64,000 nt of DNA, from assembly GCF_001619985.1 (NCBI RefSeq), contig NW_017264202.1, positions 372,001 to 436,000 on the forward strand, in the 5' to 3' direction. Origin of the DNA: Xylona heveae TC161 (taxonomy: Eukaryota > Ascomycota > Xylonomycetes > Xylonales > Xylonaceae). The position numbers were made by a program, and so were the translations under genes. Below the pieces are notes generated by a model, which saw nothing but the letters and a program-made list of their open reading frames with translations, was not told the origin of the DNA and did not search any database. How positions within the stretch are numbered: position 1 is the first letter of the stretch; every line of letters begins with the position of its first letter. Shown piece by piece: positions 2,933-29,800 of this stretch.

Positions 2933-5900
2933 GAGGGCGATGGTTGCGTCGCAAACGACTGCGGAGATGGCAGTTGTGGTCGTAGTTGCAGGTAAAGGAG
3001 TCTCGGAGGGTTGTTTGTGAATCGATCGTCTGCTTCACAGGCTTTGAGAATATAGAGTCACCACGGATGATTCAGGGTCCTGGTCTTTTATTCTGCAGAT
3101 AAGGTCAGCGAGCTAGTCAGCGACGCCCATTCCCGTGACGAGGGTTCATCCGTGTTTCAGAGCTGCCTATATCTTGTCTTTAAATCGCCGTCTGTCATTC
3201 CTAGCAAGAAGAAAGCTGCCTTTGCCGAGAAACTTGGTCATGTCTCAAAACACCCTTGTAGACATTGGGTGGCTCTCTCTCTCAGTCATGAGCTATTCCA
3301 GTTTTTGTGAGGAATGACAGACAGCTCCAGACGCAGGGGAGTGTAGAATGAAGTGGGAAAGATTGCACATGAAATCTGTAATCATTTGAATAAATGACAA
3401 AGGGGACCATACCTTTTGTCAGTAATGTTTGTATTGTGTTGGGTTTTCAAGAAACACAAACACGAGGAACGGGGCACAATGGTGGATAAGGTGAGAAGAG
3501 GTCACTCGTCGCCAGCTCTTCTTTGGCTGGAGACAGCGAGACAACTTATCAACAACGTCACTGAAGTCCTTGGCGAGGGGCGGGATTGGCGGGGTTCAGT
3601 CAGTGGTCAGACACCAATAATAATACCTATTAGGTACAAAGTATATGGTTCATCTTTCAGCCCAAACAGCCCCCTGTCCTCTCGTTTCCCTCTCAACTGG
3701 TGTGTACTGTACACCTCATGTACTCGTAACTACTCCTCATCTGCAAAAAGCAATTCAAAAAAAAAAGGGTAGAAATTAAACTAGACGACAGGTGTACGAG
3801 TACACCATGGTTTATGGGTAAACGTCGGAGATGTTTCCGGTGGCGAAGGTGTACAGGGCTGATCCGGCAATTAAAATGACTGAGAGGAGAATGACGTTGC
3901 AACAGGTGGACCCTGGATCAGCGCGGATAGTTGTTTATTCCAGGAGCCACTTGAAGATGATCCTGATGATGCCACCACTCGGCAGCAGGGTGCACTCAAC
4001 CAGTAATTTTGGTGGAAAATCAAAAGGGGACGGGCCGAGTGAGAGGATATCAGGCACGAACAAGCAGCCTGTCAATGATAAGGAAGAGAGGGATCAGCAA
4101 TGATCTTCTGCTCACTATCGTTGTGTGGATGGATATATATGCAACAGTTCACAGACTGCTACCCTTCTAAAGTATATTGTAATTAGCCGCAGTAATATCG
4201 CTGTCGACGGGGCTGTGCTCGCCCGCTAATCATTTCCTTCACCTTACTCCGTAAATTATAATTGCACATCCCTAGGGAGAGAAGTATATTTTATTTTCAT
4301 TTTTTTCTATCTTTAGCCTCGTGTACTCGGTATTGTCTGATATACTGCTGCCCAGCGCCGGATTCACTCGTATCATGACGCAGGGGGAGGGCCGTCGTCT
4401 TTGTCCACCGCTTATCCACCATATTTCACTGCCCCACAGGCCGGCAGATCAGGTCCAACATTACCTGATTCTCACTTTATCACTATATGTATTAAACATC
4501 TTCTCAGCCTATTCTTCTCAAATCTTACTATATTTCTCACCAGTCATCATCTTTCAGGTACCTTACCTACCCCATATACGGTACCTATCTTATCTACTAC
4601 CAACCCTGCTATTCCAACTAACCTCACCATGATCACAATTCATACCCAACAACGACGTCAAAGATTCCTTCTTTCATTTCTCTATGAATAGTCAAATACT
4701 TCCTATTTGTTAATTCTTACTTTCCTACTCTATTACCTTTAAATAAGGCACATATCGGACTAGCGGCGATGCATAAAATACTGTATACGGATCAGGCGGC
4801 TATCGCGGCAAGTCTCTTCTCCCCTGACACTTTCCTTATATTTCACCAGTTACTCTGTACTCTGTACTCCCGTATTCTGTACTCCGTATTCTGTACCGTA
4901 GTCCCACTCTGTATACCTACCTTACCTCATCTCATCTCACCTTACCTTACCTTACCTCACCTTAGGTAGATCGTAGACTACGGTATAGGTAGGTATGTAT
5001 GTAAATACATGAACAACAACACGTGCAGGCTGCCGTGCATGTAAACCTTAATGTGATCAGTCAGATCCCAGCAACCATATTCCCTGAATGCTCCATATAT
5101 AGTATACTGTATTCCATTTAACTTAGTTATAGCACGCTCTTTATATTATAATATAAGTTAGACTGCCAAAAACTGTACTACGTATATCCCCACAGTCCAC
5201 CAGTGCCAGTGTGCCACCGCAACTCACAACTCACAACTCACAAACTCACAGTCCAATTTCTGAACAAACAATTGCACGTTTTCAAACGATAGGTCCAAAA
5301 TGAATCTAAAATGGGAGATAAGGGAAATAAGGGGGATACGGGGGATACGGGGGATAAAGAATAAGAAGATTAACAAGGATAAATAACTGCATGGTTGAGT
5401 CAGTGACTCAGCGTATACTATCTGACATAATACATGCATACTTCTACGAGTATCTAGCTCTAATACCAGCGATAAAGTGAGCGTATCTATAAAATGGAAA
5501 ATAATGTACTACAAAGCATAGTATAGCAGAATGTATGGGAGTATAGTTGACATATGATTCCAAGGCTTGGCGGTCGGCTTAAAGCGATCTACTCGGGAAG
5601 AATACATTATGTTGAAAAAAATAAAATAATAATAATAATAACAGTAATAATCATAATAAGAGTCGTAAGAAGAAAAGCAAAAGATAAAATGCATTAAAAA
5701 CAACAATTTATTATTATATATGCCGAATGAATAAATACATCAGATAGCCTCCGGGTATTAGAATGTGCAGATGAAACGCCACTGCTATGAGTCTGTGACC
5801 GATGCACGGTGTAATGTGTTATGCGATGATGATGGGCAGACGGGAAATATGAATGCCGAAATGGTTGGGGAAGGGAAGGGGATTTGGGGGGATGGTGATC

Positions 5901-20858: not shown

Positions 20859-22229
20859 TCAATCATCATCATTATCATCATCGTCATAATTATCATCTCC
20901 TTCTTCCCGAATTTCAACATAAGGCTCGTGTTCCTGCTGGGGACCAGAATTGCCTTCTGGCTGAGAGCTTGAGTTTCCACCATTTCCTTCGGGAGCTGTT
21001 GAACTGGCACCTTCATCATCGATCGTACTCAAACTATGGACAAGCTCTGGCGTCGAAGTACTTAATAGCTCCGCTATTTTTGCATATCCCAATGCCTTGG
21101 CAGCGTCAGAGGCATGAGTACCATTCAAACTCTTGATATCAGGATCTGCGCCGCGTTCAAGCAAATGTCTTACTGCAGCGATATTGCCTAGGCAGGCCGC
21201 AAGGTAGAGTGGCGTTGCATGACTGGCGCCCTCAAGACTTGCGTGCATACTGGAAGTTGTCTCGTCAAGCCTATAGTTGATATTGGCTCCCCATGCAAGC
21301 AGATAATCTATGAGATGCAAGCAGTCGCTCTCGGTCCGTAAAAAGGTATGGGGTAGTGCGAGTTGCGCAAGTTCTGGGATCCCTTCCACTGACCCATACA
21401 GCCCGCGATACATAACATTGTGCAATAAATGGCCCTTGCGGATATCAGCGTAGCCTCTCTCGAAACATACGTGTACCATGCTCGGCACTGCCCAGTGCAC
21501 AACTGCAGATAATGGCGTGTAGTCGATATCTTCTTGCACTCTGTTGTTTATCGAAGCGCCGCTGTATAAGAGCCACCTGAAAAGCATCTCGTCTCCCAGT
21601 GCAAGACTGCAGTCCGGTGTTAATACTTGTTTTTNNNNNNNNNNNNNNNNNNNNNNNNNNNNNNNNNNNNNNNNCGGGATGACATTTGTGATGAAATGTG
21701 GTCGAATATAATCACATATCTATGGGACCTCAATGACAAGAGTCTAGAGGAGACTTATAGATATTGAGAGTGGGGTTTTGAGGAAAGTAGAATTGGAGGG
21801 AAAGACTTACCTGATCGGCGGAGAAGTTACAAAGCCAAAGTCTAAAGATGCATTCATGTCCCACCCATGTCTCCGAATCAACTTGAGAATGTCAAACGAT
21901 CTGCTTCTCATGGCTGCAATGATATGATCCGGTGTTATCCGCGGTTTGAACGGCCCTTGATCGAATAGGAATTCGGAAATGTGAAAGTTATATCGTTCAA
22001 TTGCATGCATAAACGCTTCGCTGAAGTACTTCGATGTTTCTTCGATAGTTATACTTGTATGTGGAAACTCCAGGATAGGGATGAGAAATTCGCGCATATT
22101 TGTAAGACTCCCTTGATAGCTAGCTATGACAAAGCCTTCTAGCATCATTCGAATACCATCAGGCAGTCTGCGATGATTCATGATTTGAAAAGCGTTCGGC
22201 CCTGAAGGTATAACACGCCCGGGATCCAT
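20859..22229 (-). CDS. Ankyrin-repeat protein 1 with acidic tail (paralogue of the gene at 23614-25043)
   Basis: Two exons (21811-22229 and 20859-21606) give 388 residues. The intron has AG/GTAAGT and CTGCAG borders and contains a 40-bp assembly gap. Ankyrin-type helix pairs are recognisable: LALGDEMLFRWLLYSGASIN (141-160), ESDCLHLIDYLLAWGANIN near 232-250, and the canonical ATPLYLAACLGN (270-281) with AVRHLLERGADPD. The N-terminal 130 residues are helical and diverged. The C-terminus is low complexity (Gly/Ser/Gln) and ends in an Asp/Asn-rich acidic tail, encoded by an ATC/ATT-rich microsatellite. Exon structure and intron phase match the second ankyrin gene, so the two are tandem duplicates. 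It is head to head with the small-family gene at 22804 across about 570 bp, which suggests shared control. The binding partner is unknown. Confidence 0.85.
21635..21674. other. Assembly gap (40 N) inside the intron of ankyrin gene 1
   Basis: Forty N characters lie inside the intron (21607-21810). Both splice sites are intact and outside the gap, so the coding model does not depend on the missing bases. The true intron length is unknown. Confidence 0.99.
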
Positions 22230-22803
22230 GGCCTCAGCAATTTCTAAGGGAAGTAAGTAAAGTTTTCAGGGAATAGTTCAGGATCCGGATAAGTATTTAC
22301 ATTGATTGCCAGCCTATGATCCATGCTGATGAAAAGCATCTTTGAAAGTAGAAAAGACATATCTTTCCCTCAAAAAGATAAAAAATGGGAAAGAGCGACA
22401 CTGCCGTGAGATCTTTGTTGTTTTTGGCAGTCCCGTAGAAGTATGCTTGATAGGAATCCAGTTTCGCCGGAAACAGTTCAGTTGTTGCGTTAAGAACTGG
22501 TCGCACCGTTGGTCCCTCCTCAATCCAATGCGTTCCTGCCTGATATATTCAGCGGTGACTGCCCAACAAACCATCAATGACATCCATATACCAACAGGTT
22601 TATTCTCCTGTTTTCTCTCCACAGTATCCACGCCACATTTATTGAATCTTCTCAATCTGCGGAGTCTTCTTTCAAGAGCGTAAGCCAATTCTAGTGATAA
22701 GCCGCGAACCTTTGGATTAGATTGACTCTTATAACTTCATTTTTTTAGGTAAAATCTCTCGACACAAAGTCGATTCGAGGTCAAAATATAAGGACTGGCA
22801 GAA
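22230..22803. promoter_or_regulatory. Shared divergent spacer of ankyrin gene 1 (-) and small-family gene 2 (+)
   Basis: The 574 bp between the two start codons have no other gene. This is long enough for two promoters, but the equivalent arrangement at 25044-25758 makes co-regulation a reasonable inference. No specific binding motif was identified. Confidence 0.45.
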
Positions 22804-23346
22804 ATGACAATAATGAACATTTTTGCTGAAGCAGTTGCCAACGGGGATGCTGTTAAAGTTAAACCCGATCAACAACGCATTATCAATTTCATCGAGAGAG
22901 ACACAAGTCTATGCATCGGCACTTCCGATCTCACCGGTTGTACCGTGATTGCCATCGTTTCCGATCGGGCAGCCATTGTCGGCCATATCAATAAACACCC
23001 AGCTCGGAACGGCAAGGACTTGAATGAGCTTCAAGCTGCGGCCCGTATCTATGAGAAAAGAGTCAATAATGTGCTGGATCTATTTCTCGAAAATGAAAAG
23101 TTCTTCCCAATTAGGGATTCACAAACGAAAATCATCATTGCTATATATGAAGGCAAACAATCCGCTCCTTTTCTAAGGGACATGATCGACAATTGCCTGG
23201 AGACCACGGTTTTGGAATATGCAAACATCGCTTATATTCAGCCAGGTTCCGGCCACTACGGTGATAACATCGAGAAGGTATTTTTCGTGGACGGACGTGG
23301 CGAAAAGCCAATTGTATTCGTCGAAGAAAGAGAGGTCCGTCTCTAG
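22804..23346 (+). CDS. Member 2 of a small CheD-like family with Thr-Cys-His triad pattern
   Basis: A single exon encodes 180 residues, with no signal peptide or membrane segment. The distinctive motif is Thr40-x5-Cys46-x14-His61, in GTSDLTGCTVIAIVSDRAAIVGHI. The bacterial chemoreceptor deamidase CheD has T-LGLGS-C...AH in the corresponding place. After the motif come a long amphipathic helix, a strand (TKIIIAIYEG), a helix (PFLRDMIDNCLE), a strand (NIAYIQPG) and a closing hairpin (KVFFVDGRGEKPIVFVEE). CheD shows the same order of elements. The deamidase idea is inference from this pattern. The family is otherwise known to me only as hypothetical proteins of Pezizomycotina. It is divergent from ankyrin gene 1 and convergent with ankyrin gene 2 (267 bp between stops). 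Confidence 0.8.
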   Translation: MTIMNIFAEAVANGDAVKVKPDQQRIINFIERDTSLCIGTSDLTGCTVIAIVSDRAAIVGHINKHPARNGKDLNELQAAARIYEKRVNNVLDLFLENEKFFPIRDSQTKIIIAIYEGKQSAPFLRDMIDNCLETTVLEYANIAYIQPGSGHYGDNIEKVFFVDGRGEKPIVFVEEREVRL

Positions 23347-23613
23347 ATGAATGCGGTTAAATTCCAACGTCCAATGGCTCGGGGCTCAAGTGTTTTTGCA
23401 AGTGTATTTGCATTTCTATGAAGCCATCGATATCACTAGGGCCTTGCTTGTCGCTCGCAAGAAGTGGACATTAAAGGAATTTTTACTTCGATCATGGCAG
23501 CTTTGTTGGTCTTTTCCAGAGTTTATCATATCCGTGTTGTGGCCAAAGCCTAGCCCATCCCAAGTATTTGATAGAATACATCAAGGACACAGTGGATTTC
23601 GCAGTAATTTTTT

Positions 23614-25043
23614 TCATGTTGGGACGCTCGGCGACCGAGTCGACATAATCCAAAGCATGACTGGAAACAGAGCTAAATTGGCAAAAACCAAGAGTCTGGA
23701 TGAGGTAGATGGAGGGATGAATATGGCTCCAGAGTGTTGAGCTTCGTCTGGTTTGTGTCCAATATGGCCGCTGTATGGTCCAATCTTCTCCGCAACGTCC
23801 CCCTTCAATGCCCGCAGAACCTTGACGATGGCCAGATGCCCAAAATATTCAGCCCTTTCATAAGCAAGTTGGCCTCTGGTATTCTTCACGTTCGGGTCGG
23901 CACCACGAATAAGCAGATGTTCCACTGCAGTGAGGTTCCCCACTTCTGCGGCCACATGGAGGGGTGTTCCTAGGCCAAATGCTTGGTGCTGAAAGAAAGT
24001 CTTCGCATCATTCTGGTATTTGATGCCATCGACATTTGCCCCTTTAGAGAGTAAATAGTCTATAACTGGTAGGCATTCATCTTCTGTCATTGAACGCGGC
24101 ACGGCTTTTGTGGATGCAACATTTCTTGCCCCTGGTGGCCCCATCGCGCCTCTCCCCACGGCGCAATGGAGCAATTGGCCGCGGTGCACGTCCCCACCAC
24201 CTCGCTCAAAAAGTATTTTTATGGTAGCAAAAGACCCGTGCGCAACGGCAAGGGAAAGTACCGTGAAATCGTCCTCTTCAAAAATGGTGGTGTTGGGATC
24301 AGCACCGTGGGCGAGAAACCAGCGCAGAAGTGGCTCGTCATTCAGTGCCAGCCTGCAGAACTCTTATTAGATCGGTCTTCACAACTGTCAGTGGAAGCCT
24401 GCTTTCAAACAAGCTCTTCATTGACAGGTAACAGAATAGAAAGAAAGATTTGAGGCTAGTGGGGAGATATCCATAGGCTTCGCAATACAGGTGGACATCA
24501 CGGAATTATACAATCGATAAAGAGGACGAGGGAGTCAATAAATATGATCAGGTAAGAGAGAAAGAGAGAGATGAACGAGCGCATTCTGTATATAAGCCTT
24601 AAGGAGCAATAATATTAAAGTACCTACGTTAATGGCGGCCCCTCGCGCCATCCCATGGGATGATTAATATCCCATCCATGCTCTATGAAGAGCTTCAGCA
24701 TCACGAAGCTCCTTTTTTGAGCTGCAAGAACAAAGTCGTTTGCGTAAATTGATATGCCCTGGTCCAGCAGATATAAAACAATATGTGTATGGTTGCGTTC
24801 CACTGCCCTTTCCAGGGCAACATGGAGCGGAGTCAAGTCTCCTTCTTCACTAGCAGGTTCATTTTTCCCAATTCGGGACAAAGCGCTCTTGCATGTCGCA
24901 AATCTGGCCTGCACAGCATCGAGATCCCCTCGCTCACTGGCTGCAACAATGCCCTGTATATTCTCCTCTGCATCTATCAGGATATCCGGAGGACCAATTT
25001 TTGATATATGTTGAGACGAAGCTGGATGAGAGTCCGGGTCCAT
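23614..25043 (-). CDS. Ankyrin-repeat protein 2 with hydrophobic C-terminal segment
   Basis: Two exons (24628-25043 and 23614-24352) are separated by an unusually long 275-bp intron (GTAGGT...CTGCAG) and give 384 residues. The intron lies at the same place and phase as in ankyrin gene 1. Ankyrin features are DLTPLHVALERAV near 69-81 and HIVLYLLDQGISI, then LALNDEPLLRWFLAHGADPN (140-159), VIDYLLSKGANVD and GTPLHVAAEVGNLTAVEHL (about 267-285) with IRGADPNVKN. The C-terminus differs from its paralogue: instead of an acidic tail it has a hydrophobic stretch (SSRLLVFANLALFPVMLWIM, about 354-373). That could be a tail anchor. It is head to head with the small-family gene at 25759. Its role is unknown; a scaffold or partner for the adjacent family product is an inference from synteny. 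Confidence 0.87.
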
Positions 25044-25758
25044 GGTCTATTTTCCAACGCTCTGAATGCTGCGGCTCATGGTCGAAGGAAAAGAGGGGGA
25101 AAGTTTCAGAAAAGGGGCATAAAATTAGACCTAGAATTTTTGAAAACTGAGAGGGGGAAGAATAGAATGTCTGCTAGTAACAGAATGCTACTCTCGTTGT
25201 TTGCACACAGTCCGGGAGATCTACCCAACCGCCGGGCGTCTATTCGTTTAGGCTCATTGGCTGATTCTGGGGCGAGGGGGGGTAATTAAACCGCCCATTT
25301 ATACCAGCCTCGCTTCCAGGCGCCTGATGCCTCCAAAATAACCTCATTTTTACGCGCTCAAACCACAGTTCAAGGGAACTGATACGACAGGGAAAAACAA
25401 GGAACCCCGTCATGACCACTGAGTCCTCGAGCATTGAATTTTATGAATATCTTGTGGGAGTTTCCAAGGATCCGCCCCCAGAAGGGTCGGATTCGGGGCG
25501 GAAGACGACACGGATATATATTAAATTTTGCGAAGATGATTCCAAATATAAATCGGTACTATATCCGCAATATTAATCATATATTTAATTTACTGCTTTA
25601 AATTCCTTCCTCTATCCTACTCTTGGATTTTTTTTCGGTTTTCTGCTCAGAGCTTGTCCCGTATATATTCCCTGAAATTCCAATTGCTTAATTTTTATTC
25701 TCATGTTGTGCATGAAAGTTTTATTCTTCAATCAATCGCCATATTCGAGAAAAGTTCA
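25044..25758. promoter_or_regulatory. Shared divergent spacer of ankyrin gene 2 (-) and small-family gene 3 (+)
   Basis: The 715 bp between the two start codons are AT-rich in the half next to the plus-strand gene (25480-25700). The codons just upstream of 25759 are open but contain no ATG. No sequence similarity to the 22230-22803 spacer was visible by eye. Confidence 0.45.
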
Positions 25759-26286
25759 ATGGGAGGGCTGCTCGCAGAAGCTCTGTCACTCAATCAAGCT
25801 TATGAAGTTTATATGGACGAAGTGAAATTTGTCTTATTCGACCCAACCGGTCCAAAGCGAAGTGTTGGAACTGCGGGGTTGAACGGGTGCAGCGTGGTGA
25901 CCATTATCTCTCCCTTGGCCGCGATCCTGGCCCATTTGCCTCCGCATCCAGGACGTGATTGGCATGATCCATATGCGGCCGACAGGCATGTGGAAGCGAA
26001 AATGAACGAATTAATAAATCTATATCGGCATGTCCGGGAGTATTTTCGACCTGAAAATACAACTTGGGTAATAAGTGCAATGTTTGATGGACAGGTCGCA
26101 TTGCCTGACCAGCGAGAAATCATTGAGAACAAGCTCAGGGAAGCTGGCTTGACGTCCACGAGATCCACATATATGGTTGTCGACGCAACACTTTTTCAAG
26201 GTCCTGGTCAAGGAACTGTCTTTGTTGATGCGAGAGGAGGTCCTTCAATTGTTTATGTTGGTGATCGAGCATTGCATTTACCATAG
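25759..26286 (+). CDS. Member 3 of a small CheD-like family with Thr-Cys-His triad pattern
   Basis: A single exon encodes 175 residues from the first ATG in the open frame (MGGLLAEALS). Thr38-x5-Cys44-x14-His59 lies in GTAGLNGCSVVTII and AAILAHLPP. This is closer to CheD's TLGLGSC...AH..LP than the copy at 22804. Downstream elements in order are AKMNELINLYRHVREYF (helix), TTWVISAMFDGQ (strand), LPDQREIIENKLREAGL (helix, parallel to the IGERN helix of CheD), STYMVVD (strand) and GQGTVFVDARGGPSIVYVGDR (hairpin). It is probably soluble and intracellular. The enzyme proposal rests on motif spacing and order of elements only. The gene is the outer partner of ankyrin gene 2. Confidence 0.8.
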   Translation: MGGLLAEALSLNQAYEVYMDEVKFVLFDPTGPKRSVGTAGLNGCSVVTIISPLAAILAHLPPHPGRDWHDPYAADRHVEAKMNELINLYRHVREYFRPENTTWVISAMFDGQVALPDQREIIENKLREAGLTSTRSTYMVVDATLFQGPGQGTVFVDARGGPSIVYVGDRALHLP

Positions 26287-26839: not shown

Positions 26840-29800
26840 CTATCGCTCAACATCCTTCTGTCTGAGTTTTTCCCGCTGCTCCTTGCCTTTTTCCGTACGC
26901 ATGACATACTGATATTTATACTTTTGCAAGGGATCTGTCTCACCGACCTCCATCTTTCCCCATTGTTGCATCAGAACTTTTGCCATATCACGCTTATCCT
27001 TCTCAAGTACATCCAATCTGCGATGCCATTCTCGCTCTTTTGCGCGCCACTTCTCTGCTAATTTGCGTTCCAAAGCTCGGTTGATTTCATCGTTGTCGTT
27101 CTTGGTGGCCTGAATTTCAGCTTTGGCCTCTTTGGCCTCTGCTGCCAACCTGGCATACTCTGTTTGTGCCAGCTTGGCTTCAGTCTGTGACGCGTTAAGC
27201 TTTTTTGAAAGAATAGACACAGCTTGGCGAAGTTCTGAGAGGCTAGATGACTCGTCGTGCGGCTTAGGTTTGGAGTCTGCCCTTTCAATGTTCAATTGTG
27301 TGGTTTCTTCTGCAGAATCGAAATTAATGTCATTGTCACTCTCTTCACTGTCCCCTGCTGTGCGGGCTTTTGAACTCTTGGCGTTCCTCGCGTTTTGCGT
27401 AGAAGACTTTTGCCCTTTCGTTTTCAAGTTACTGCGAGAGGTTCTCGCTGCAGGAGGTCCTAGAAGACTCATATCCGTCTCATCTTCGTGTCGCGTGTGG
27501 TCGTGGTCAACGTCGGACTCATTGTCACTGCTTTCATCCTCGAAGCGGACTTTCTGTTTTCTGGCCTTGGTATCTGCCTTGCGTTTTGATGGCACATCCC
27601 TTTTGACCTTGGCCAAAGCTTCTTCGCTTTCGGCTAGTGCCTCTTCATTTTGCGCAAGCGCAATTTCAAGGGATCGAATTTGGTCTTCTCGAACTTCAAT
27701 CTCCTTGGCATGCTCGCTCGTGAGTCGGGACTCGCGATTCTTCATGCCCTCTCCGGCCTTGAGAAGAAGGTCCTTCAGTTTGCTTACCTCCTCATCGTGC
27801 TTTTGGCCAAGATGCTCGATTGTTCGTCGGTTCTCCTCTTTCAGCTCCTCAATGTGCCGTTGATTTCTTATTTCGAACTCATCGGCGGAGTCTTGATCTA
27901 TATTTGTTCGAGAGAGGTTAGATTCTGGCAAAAGCGACTGCTCTGAACGCTCCTTTCTCAAGACCTCGAGCTGAGAACCGAGCTCTTTGAGCTCCCGACT
28001 ATATTGGTCAAGCAGGTCCTGTCTTTCCAGGCTTTCACGCTCGTACTTGCTAATCGTCAGATTGAGAGATTTAATCTCACTGGCTTGGGATTCGATCAGC
28101 CGGGAATGCGCATCGGAGTCTTTTTCGGTAGACTGAAGTAATCGGTTGGTCTCATCAAGATCTCGCTGAATGCTTCGGATCTGCAATTTCAGAGATTCGA
28201 TATGCGTTGTAGAGTCGTATTTGATCGATGTGACTTCAGCTTCGAGCGCGGCGATTTTAAGACCGGTTTCGGTCTTGGACCTATCCATGTCCGTTGTGAC
28301 AACCTTCATCTCCGAGGCCACCTTCGCGCCCTGAGCCGTTGCCTCAACTCGAGCGTCAGACGCTTCTTGTCTGGTGGACTCGAGCGCATTTTCGAGGGCG
28401 CTAATTCGAGAAAGAGCTTCACTCTTCCACGTATCCGCCTGGACCTTAATAAAAGCGATATCTTGCTGTGTTCCACTGACATCAATCTTGATTCCATCAA
28501 CACTGGTTTCAAGATGTCGAACAGAGGCGATATCGCCAGCCCTGTTTGCTGCAGTATGCTGCTGCAGGGCCTTGAGCTCAGCCTCAAGGATCTTTATCTT
28601 CGACTCTGATTCAGGCCACAGCCCCTCGTAGTCCACTCCTGGTAAACTAAACCGAGTTTTCTTAGGGCTATTCACCGAGCCTGTTGGCGTGCGTACAGAT
28701 TCAGTCTGAGCAAGCTTTGACCGTAACTGCTGCACTTCCTTCCGCAGATCATCGATCTCTTTGAGGTTAGGCGCCTGATTTGGGTCAGAAACCGGCCTTG
28801 GCTGCACAGTCCGCAGTTCCTGTAGCTTCGCCAACTCATCATGAATCTCCTTCTTTGCAGCATCCAGTTCTTCTTTGAACTTGGCCAGCTCTTCATCCTT
28901 GTTTTTGAGTCTCTGCTCTTGCGCTTTTCCCTTCTCTTCCGTTAAAGCTTTCAGCTTGCTAAGCTCCTCGTCCTTGTCTCTGAGCTTTTCTTCCTGTAGC
29001 TCTGTGATCCGTTCTACCATGTCTTGAATCTTTAGAATCTCCGCATCCTTGTCTTTAAGTCTCCTCTCTTGTGCGGCTGCCACAGTCTCGGCTCGTTCTT
29101 TGGCCCTTTGAATATCCAGGGCAGATTTATGCAAGCTTTCCACTTGCTGCAAGAGATTGGAAATCTGAACTTTCAGCTCCTCACGTTCCTCATCGATATC
29201 ATGTGTCACTGGCTCCTCTGCCCTAGCTTGTGTCGCAGCTGGAGGTTGAGCGGATTGGGAAGACATATTCGATCGCTTCGACTCGTTTGATAATCGTCGC
29301 TCGGCCTTGGGATCAGGTGTAGATGCATCCACTGGGTAAAAGGAGCTCCCCTCTCGCGTATTTACTCTTGCCCGCTCATTGCTCTGGTCATCTGGGATCT
29401 CCTCGGGAACTACATCATCCTCATTATTGTAAATCTCGTCACCGGTACTGCCAATATCGCGCTCGATCGTATCTCGCATCCATCGCTCCATATTTTGTGT
29501 AAAATCGCTTGGTCCATCATTGGCTTCCTTCATAGTGTGATGCGTGCTACCCTCACTGCGATCGTCGGGATAATGCTGTTTCCTCGGCGGCATAGAAAGC
29601 GAATCCTTCCCTTGATGCAGAGTTTTATCCAGGTTCACGTTTCCATTAACGTATTCTTCGAGATTTGCCGTGAAATCTGTCATGCTTTCGTCGTCGGCAT
29701 CCGCGGCCGAAGATCCGCTACGTGTGGCTTGCCTTGTCCTGAGGCAGATTCATTAGGCCATAAGTCAACGACAAAAGTAGTGAGGCTGTTGAATACTAAC

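Follow-up and report, generated by a model that had tools for sequence, protein, structure and literature searches.

Small Xylona heveae proteins with a predicted CheD/NTAN1-like fold and a conserved Thr-Cys-His triad, encoded head to head with ankyrin genes

What do two small open reading frames (ORFs) on contig NW_017264202.1 of Xylona heveae TC161, an ascomycete of the Xylonomycetes, encode? They lie in a stretch of 64,000 nucleotides (positions 372,001 to 436,000 of the forward strand; hereafter the window), and a preliminary description of this DNA had proposed them as a candidate eukaryotic deamidase family resembling bacterial CheD. Both are intact and lie exactly where that description placed them. 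We consider it fairly probable that they are members of an unannotated fungal family of small cysteine amidohydrolases. This family would have a CNF1/YfiH-like fold, with CheD and the NTAN1 catalytic core as its nearest relatives, and its members would act as intracellular protein side-chain deamidases with an ankyrin partner. In window coordinates, the genes and the codons of the predicted triad are:

22804..23346, plus strand: copy 1, putative CheD/NTAN1-like cysteine hydrolase, 180 amino acids (aa), single open frame
22921..22986, plus strand: copy 1 triad codons (Thr40 22921-22923, Cys46 22939-22941, His61 22984-22986)
25759..26286, plus strand: copy 2, putative CheD/NTAN1-like cysteine hydrolase, 175 aa, single open frame
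25870..25935, plus strand: copy 2 triad codons (Thr38 25870-25872, Cys44 25888-25890, His59 25933-25935)

The residue positions confirm that both proteins carry the spacing Thr-x5-Cys-x14-His. The histidine motif had been slightly misread and is A-x2-[AG]-H (AIVGH in copy 1, AILAH in copy 2) rather than A-x-[AG]-H. The two copies are 30% identical over 171 aligned residues. A genome-wide protein search found a third, which the preliminary description had not covered, on contig C9 (559128-559628); its sequence is identical to protein L228DRAFT_284646 of strain TC161. Copies 2 and 3 are the closest pair (46% identity), and copies 1 and 3 share 28%. Because both window frames are open and both structure models are confident, a pair of pseudogenes is rejected.

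A profile built from the three copies retrieved 68 proteins and a wider profile at least 10 more, giving a family of at least 78 members; copy 2 alone as the query of a protein search matched nothing besides itself. The 26 of 78 members that carry an organism name come from what we take to be ascomycete genera throughout, including Aspergillus, Verticillium, Coniochaeta, Psora, Trematosphaeria, Septoria, Cercospora and Friedmanniomyces, and the other members include proteins from metagenomic sources. No Pfam deamidase family matches any of the 68 members or five of the ten added ones, and nothing in NCBIfam exceeds the cut-offs for the three Xylona copies. A phage tblastn search gave only three chance matches (best E 8), scans of viral contigs and prokaryote genomes returned 19 and 38 stretches fitting the pattern with no relative found among them at that sensitivity, and Protein Data Bank sequence searches with copy 2 or the family alignment gave nothing relevant. 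Many members (P0003, P0013, P0010, P0022, P0070 and P0074 among them) have C-terminal extensions rich in Trp and Tyr with recurring motifs; the C9 copy has one and both window copies lack it. One member contains a choline-binding repeat. Two partial Verticillium longisporum records, P0059 and P0061, also contain an Asp/Glu racemase domain (PF01177, best E 7.7e-24), which could reflect a fusion or a gene-model error and was used for no conclusion.

Conservation across this family is concentrated on the proposed triad. After fragments below 70% coverage (P0062, P0064 and P0065) were removed, the members from both profile searches gave 75 rows. The preliminary description had proposed a check of whether the cysteine and histidine are conserved among fungal homologues; both are invariant in every row that covers them (Cys44 in 73/73, His59 in 75/75; copy 2 numbering), and Thr38 is kept in 72/74. 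Within the 68-protein set the counts are 64/64 for Cys (4 gaps), 66/66 for His (2 gaps) and 63/65 for Thr (3 gaps), the exceptions being Ala in P0007 and Ile in P0051. The invariance of Cys and His extends to members only about 20-30% identical to the window copy, and this column conservation rules out a chance spacing of residues. Also conserved are Pro62, Pro64, Phe96, Tyr138, Gly152 and, where the second helix begins, a Leu-Pro-Asp-Gln whose Gln118 occurs in 62 of the 75 rows. The sequence LGSC, invariant in CheD as is His44, is present in 22 of those rows, with LNGC, LAGC, LNSC and similar variants in the others.

AlphaFold models place these residues in a recognizable fold. The models of the window copies have pLDDT values of 94 and 86 and cover the fold only (175 and 177 aa). 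The predicted elements of the copy 2 model (helix 73-91, strand 101-109, helix 116-128, strand 133-139, strands 154-157 and 164-167) follow the CheD-like order of helix, strand, helix, strand and closing hairpin that had been read from the sequence. The models show the alpha-beta-beta sandwich of the CNF1/YfiH-like superfamily, with its conserved Cys, His and third member (Ser/Thr or a carbonyl). Structural comparison, named beforehand as the check on the fold, led to the group of proteins around CheD. In Foldseek, CheD heads the matches of copy 2 (E 1.1e-7), and by structural Z score CheD and human NTAN1 are the best two matches of both copies, at 12.1 and 11.2 for copy 2 and at 11.2 and 11.7 for copy 1. 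NTAN1 is the best match of copy 1. CheD also appears for copy 1 in VIA-align. A CNF1/YfiH-like fold with a Cys-His-Thr triad is therefore well supported as a prediction.

The predicted fold also occurs in giant viruses. All five BFVD matches to the copy 2 model with E ≤ 0.001 (4.5e-7 to 5.3e-4) are giant-virus proteins, from Tupanvirus, Mimiviridae sp. ChoanoV1, Moumouvirus and Fadolivirus, and the one from Moumouvirus is labelled 'CheD chemotaxis protein'. They are longer than the fungal proteins, are 11-14% identical to them over aligned columns, and appear to be a eukaryotic-virus branch of the CheD/NTAN1-like fold.

Are the fungal proteins, then, CheD? According to an excerpt of PMC7022378, the triad of Thermotoga maritima CheD (PF03975; 2F9Z) is Cys27/His44/Thr21. 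Its histidine follows at Cys-x16-His, in contrast to Cys-x14-His in the fungal family. The threonine six residues before the cysteine, given in the preliminary description as a CheD feature, holds for the T. maritima protein but not for a wider set of 92 CheD rows, in which Thr lies five before Cys in 89 and six before in 14; among CheD proteins, the position of the third triad residue may therefore vary. That heavily proteobacterial set combines T. maritima CheD and plasmid records (13 rows) with 80 added genome loci, 92 rows being kept. Pfam CheD matches nothing in the X. heveae genome and does match in five control genomes. CheD deamidates Gln of chemoreceptors in a chemotaxis setting, whereas the fungal copies lie beside ankyrin genes with no chemotaxis operon; to our knowledge, and with no search made, the fungus lacks chemoreceptors. 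We reject a CheD orthologue on the absence of a Pfam match, the weak profile similarity and the non-chemotaxis neighbors. What stands of the proposed CheD likeness is the predicted fold, which NTAN1 shares, and the triad; membership in CheD does not.

NTAN1 itself (PF14736; human 6A0E/6A0F) has the Cys/His/Ser(Thr) triad in common with the fungal family. Both window copies lack its appended C-terminal region and its Thr73-Thr74. The fungal family is neither CheD nor NTAN1 proper. CNF-type toxins, the deamidase toxin BLF1 and YfiH/YlmD are more distant, and no secretion or delivery parts were found. Human NTAN1 is as close as CheD, so eukaryotes already have a known deamidase of this fold, and the earlier proposal of a eukaryotic deamidase family keeps its fold and conserved triad but loses its specific tie to CheD.

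How these proteins might act is suggested by their relatives. In solved relatives the cysteine attacks the amide carbon, the histidine activates the cysteine and a Ser or Thr orients the histidine; in NTAN1, activity is lost when Cys or His is mutated and falls about 5-fold when Ser is (both from the excerpt of PMC7022378). These three residues also occur in the fungal proteins, in unchanged order. Thr38 would orient His59, which would activate Cys44 for attack on the side-chain amide of a partner protein's Gln or Asn. To judge by Cys94 and Ser92 in a relative described in PMC8960835, the backbone amides at Cys44 and residue 42 might hold the oxyanion; the excerpted part of that paper describes BLF1 as using the amides of its Cys and of the residue two before it. 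Ammonia would then depart and water would free Glu or Asp. Protein side-chain deamidase is the likely but unproven enzyme class.

The likelier target is an internal position in an intracellular protein. Gln or Asn at such a position is favored because the window copies end at 175-180 aa without the appended region of NTAN1, from which its specificity for N-terminal Asn largely derives (excerpt of PMC7022378). The predicted fold includes the N-terminal helix, and a simple hydropathy scan, as opposed to a signal-peptide predictor, detected no strongly hydrophobic stretch at the protein starts; the proteins are therefore probably intracellular.

Which protein might be the partner? One ankyrin gene lies upstream of copy 1, and another lies between the two ORFs on the opposite strand; neither featured in the preliminary description. 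Each runs head to head with its enzyme gene:

20859..21590, minus strand: ankyrin gene A, second exon (Ank PF00023, E 4e-10; upstream limit approximate)
21807..22229, minus strand: ankyrin gene A, first exon (ORF), head to head with copy 1 (Ank_2 alone weak, E 0.23)
22230..22803, no strand: intergenic stretch from the ankyrin A start codon to the copy 1 start codon, 574 bp
23614..24365, minus strand: ankyrin gene B, second exon (Ank PF00023, E 6e-11 for 23614-24141; frame open further upstream; upstream limit approximate)
24624..25043, minus strand: ankyrin gene B, first exon (ORF), head to head with copy 2 (Ank PF00023, E 9.7e-7)
25044..25758, no strand: intergenic stretch from the ankyrin B start codon to the copy 2 start codon, 715 bp

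Copy 3 on contig C9 has the same arrangement, with the start codons of the enzyme and of ankyrin gene C 739 bp apart, so that each of the three enzyme copies in X. heveae is head to head with a member of a single ankyrin subfamily. The first exon of ankyrin A can be aligned with those of genes B, C and D, and a genome search with the second exon of ankyrin C found four loci, namely A, B, C and one on contig C6. An Ank_2 scan of the genome gave 40 matches, which we grouped into 27 loci; this is a lower bound, as gene A was missed. With at least 27 such loci, pairing in three of three cases is unlikely to be due to chance, although two of the pairs possibly stem from one tandem duplication. The 574-bp and 715-bp stretches could serve as shared promoter regions. 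A scan of the upstream gap for bacterial promoters and terminators, which is not meaningful for a fungus, gave nothing useful above shuffled sequences. A run of 40 N at 21635-21674, between the two exons of ankyrin A, marks an assembly gap or a masked stretch.

From this gene order, the ankyrin protein is probably a dedicated partner of the enzyme, as substrate, targeting adaptor, or regulator or brake. A more specific version holds that the two genes form a module in which the CheD-like deamidase modifies Gln or Asn on the ankyrin repeats and so switches ankyrin binding, or in which the ankyrin protein is a brake. Such a module, whose two genes would have duplicated and diverged together, would parallel in fungi the action of CheD on helical chemoreceptors. 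We offer this version tentatively and think it doubtful.

Several observations weigh against a deamidase with an ankyrin partner. A fold is by itself no proof of deamidation, as YfiH has the same fold and other chemistry. CheD is not among the 50 Foldseek matches listed for copy 1, a protein in which the second helix also departs from the conserved Leu-Pro-Asp-Gln, with Leu at the Gln position. The Pfam models CheD and N_Asn_amidohyd match none of the 68 members at E ≤ 10. The profile comparison with CheD, proposed at the outset as a check, is suggestive at most: the untrimmed comparison gave P 0.15 (probability 0.4%), the trimmed one P 0.017 (an equal or better score in 4 of 273 column-shuffled profiles), and the larger CheD set P 0.044 (12/300 shuffles), a weaker match rather than a stronger one. 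Thr38/Cys44/His59 fall on CheD Thr21/Cys27/His44 in five of eight alignment settings. In the other three the triad is not fully paired: one alignment ends before the histidine, one places it off by two, and one global alignment fails. CheD also has near-invariant Gly88-Gly89, Asn104 and Arg130. Depending on the alignment, CheD Gly89 pairs with Pro98 or with Gly111 (Gly in 58/74), Asn104 with Gln118 or a gap, and Arg130 with Gly152 or Ala143 or falls beyond the alignment. Because the sequence significance is weak and the alignments disagree, the link to CheD rests on predicted structure and conserved residues. As for the partner, the pairing is known from one genome, X. heveae, and its two window pairs may be a single tandem duplication. 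The fourth ankyrin gene of the subfamily, on contig C6 (L022; 5492-6464, plus strand), has no enzyme copy nearby, and the identities of the enzymes (46% for copies 2 and 3) and of the ankyrin second exons (40% for A and B, 39% for B and C) are not fully congruent.

Could the same fold carry out another reaction? A transglutaminase, an isopeptidase or peptidase, a small-molecule amidase or a YfiH-like nucleosidase would all be compatible with it, yet CheD and NTAN1 score clearly higher, and we think such an activity unlikely. The zinc site of YfiH consists of two His and one Cys. The 75 fungal rows contain one invariant His column, the next best reaching 33/75 and 24/75, so a YfiH-type zinc enzyme is rejected. 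Cu-oxidase_4 also has no match in the X. heveae genome.

We give a similarly low probability to a conflict module, in which the free deamidase-like protein would harm the cell or a rival and the ankyrin protein would neutralize it. Head-to-head pairs, divergent copies and patchy named sources would suit such a system. So would the lone C6 ankyrin gene: a transposase (3863-5209, plus strand; Tc3-type helix-turn-helix and DDE_3) lies directly upstream, at the position expected for the partner, which fits loss of the enzyme from a pair. The excerpted text of PMC3482391 lists ankyrin repeats among the immunity proteins, and a CNF1/YfiH-fold domain among the toxins, of bacterial polymorphic toxin systems, though not together. 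Against this, Pfam scans of the members revealed no fusion with trafficking domains, the pairing comes from one genome, and the toxicity of the enzyme is hypothetical.

It is also rather improbable that the proteins are N-terminal asparagine amidohydrolases with the role of NTAN1 in an N-degron pathway of the fungus. By Z score NTAN1 is level with CheD, it is the best match of copy 1, and it has the same Cys/His pair with a Ser or Thr six before the Cys (PMC7022378, excerpt). The role is not visibly taken by NTAN1 itself, because Pfam N_Asn_amidohyd has no match in the X. heveae genome. The same excerpt attributes recognition of the N-terminus to Thr73, Thr74, Ser254, Thr255 and Glu260, several of them in the appended C-terminal region that proteins of 175-180 aa do not reach. 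The two positions before the catalytic cysteine, equivalent to Thr73-Thr74, are mostly Asn/Gly and Gly/Ser, with Thr in 1/73 and 0/73 rows. Yeast, moreover, deamidates N-terminal Asn with a nitrilase-fold enzyme (excerpt of PMC7022378), and patchy copies beside ankyrin genes are unlike a housekeeping enzyme. A non-catalytic binding protein that merely retains the fold would agree with the absence of Thr in 2/74 rows, but Cys in 73/73 and His in 75/75 at such low identities are hard to explain without catalysis, and we regard this as very improbable.

If the proteins are deamidases with an ankyrin partner, ascomycete proteins now called hypothetical would form a family of enzymes predicted to modify proteins, and a fold so far known from CheD, bacterial toxins and the animal and plant N-degron enzyme NTAN1 would gain a fungal branch. 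A Thr-Cys-His spacing read from raw sequence would then have pointed to a fold missed by Pfam profiles. We found no account in the open-licence literature of a fungal CheD/CNF1-fold family or of its pairing with ankyrin genes. The new element is the head-to-head arrangement of all three X. heveae copies, which suggests an enzyme-partner pair and offers a concrete first candidate for a substrate or regulator, usually the missing piece for deamidases. Downstream of copy 2, the minus strand of the window holds a 947-aa coiled-coil-like ORF (26840-29683), with a sub-threshold Pfam match to the CEP152-binding coiled coil (E 0.02).

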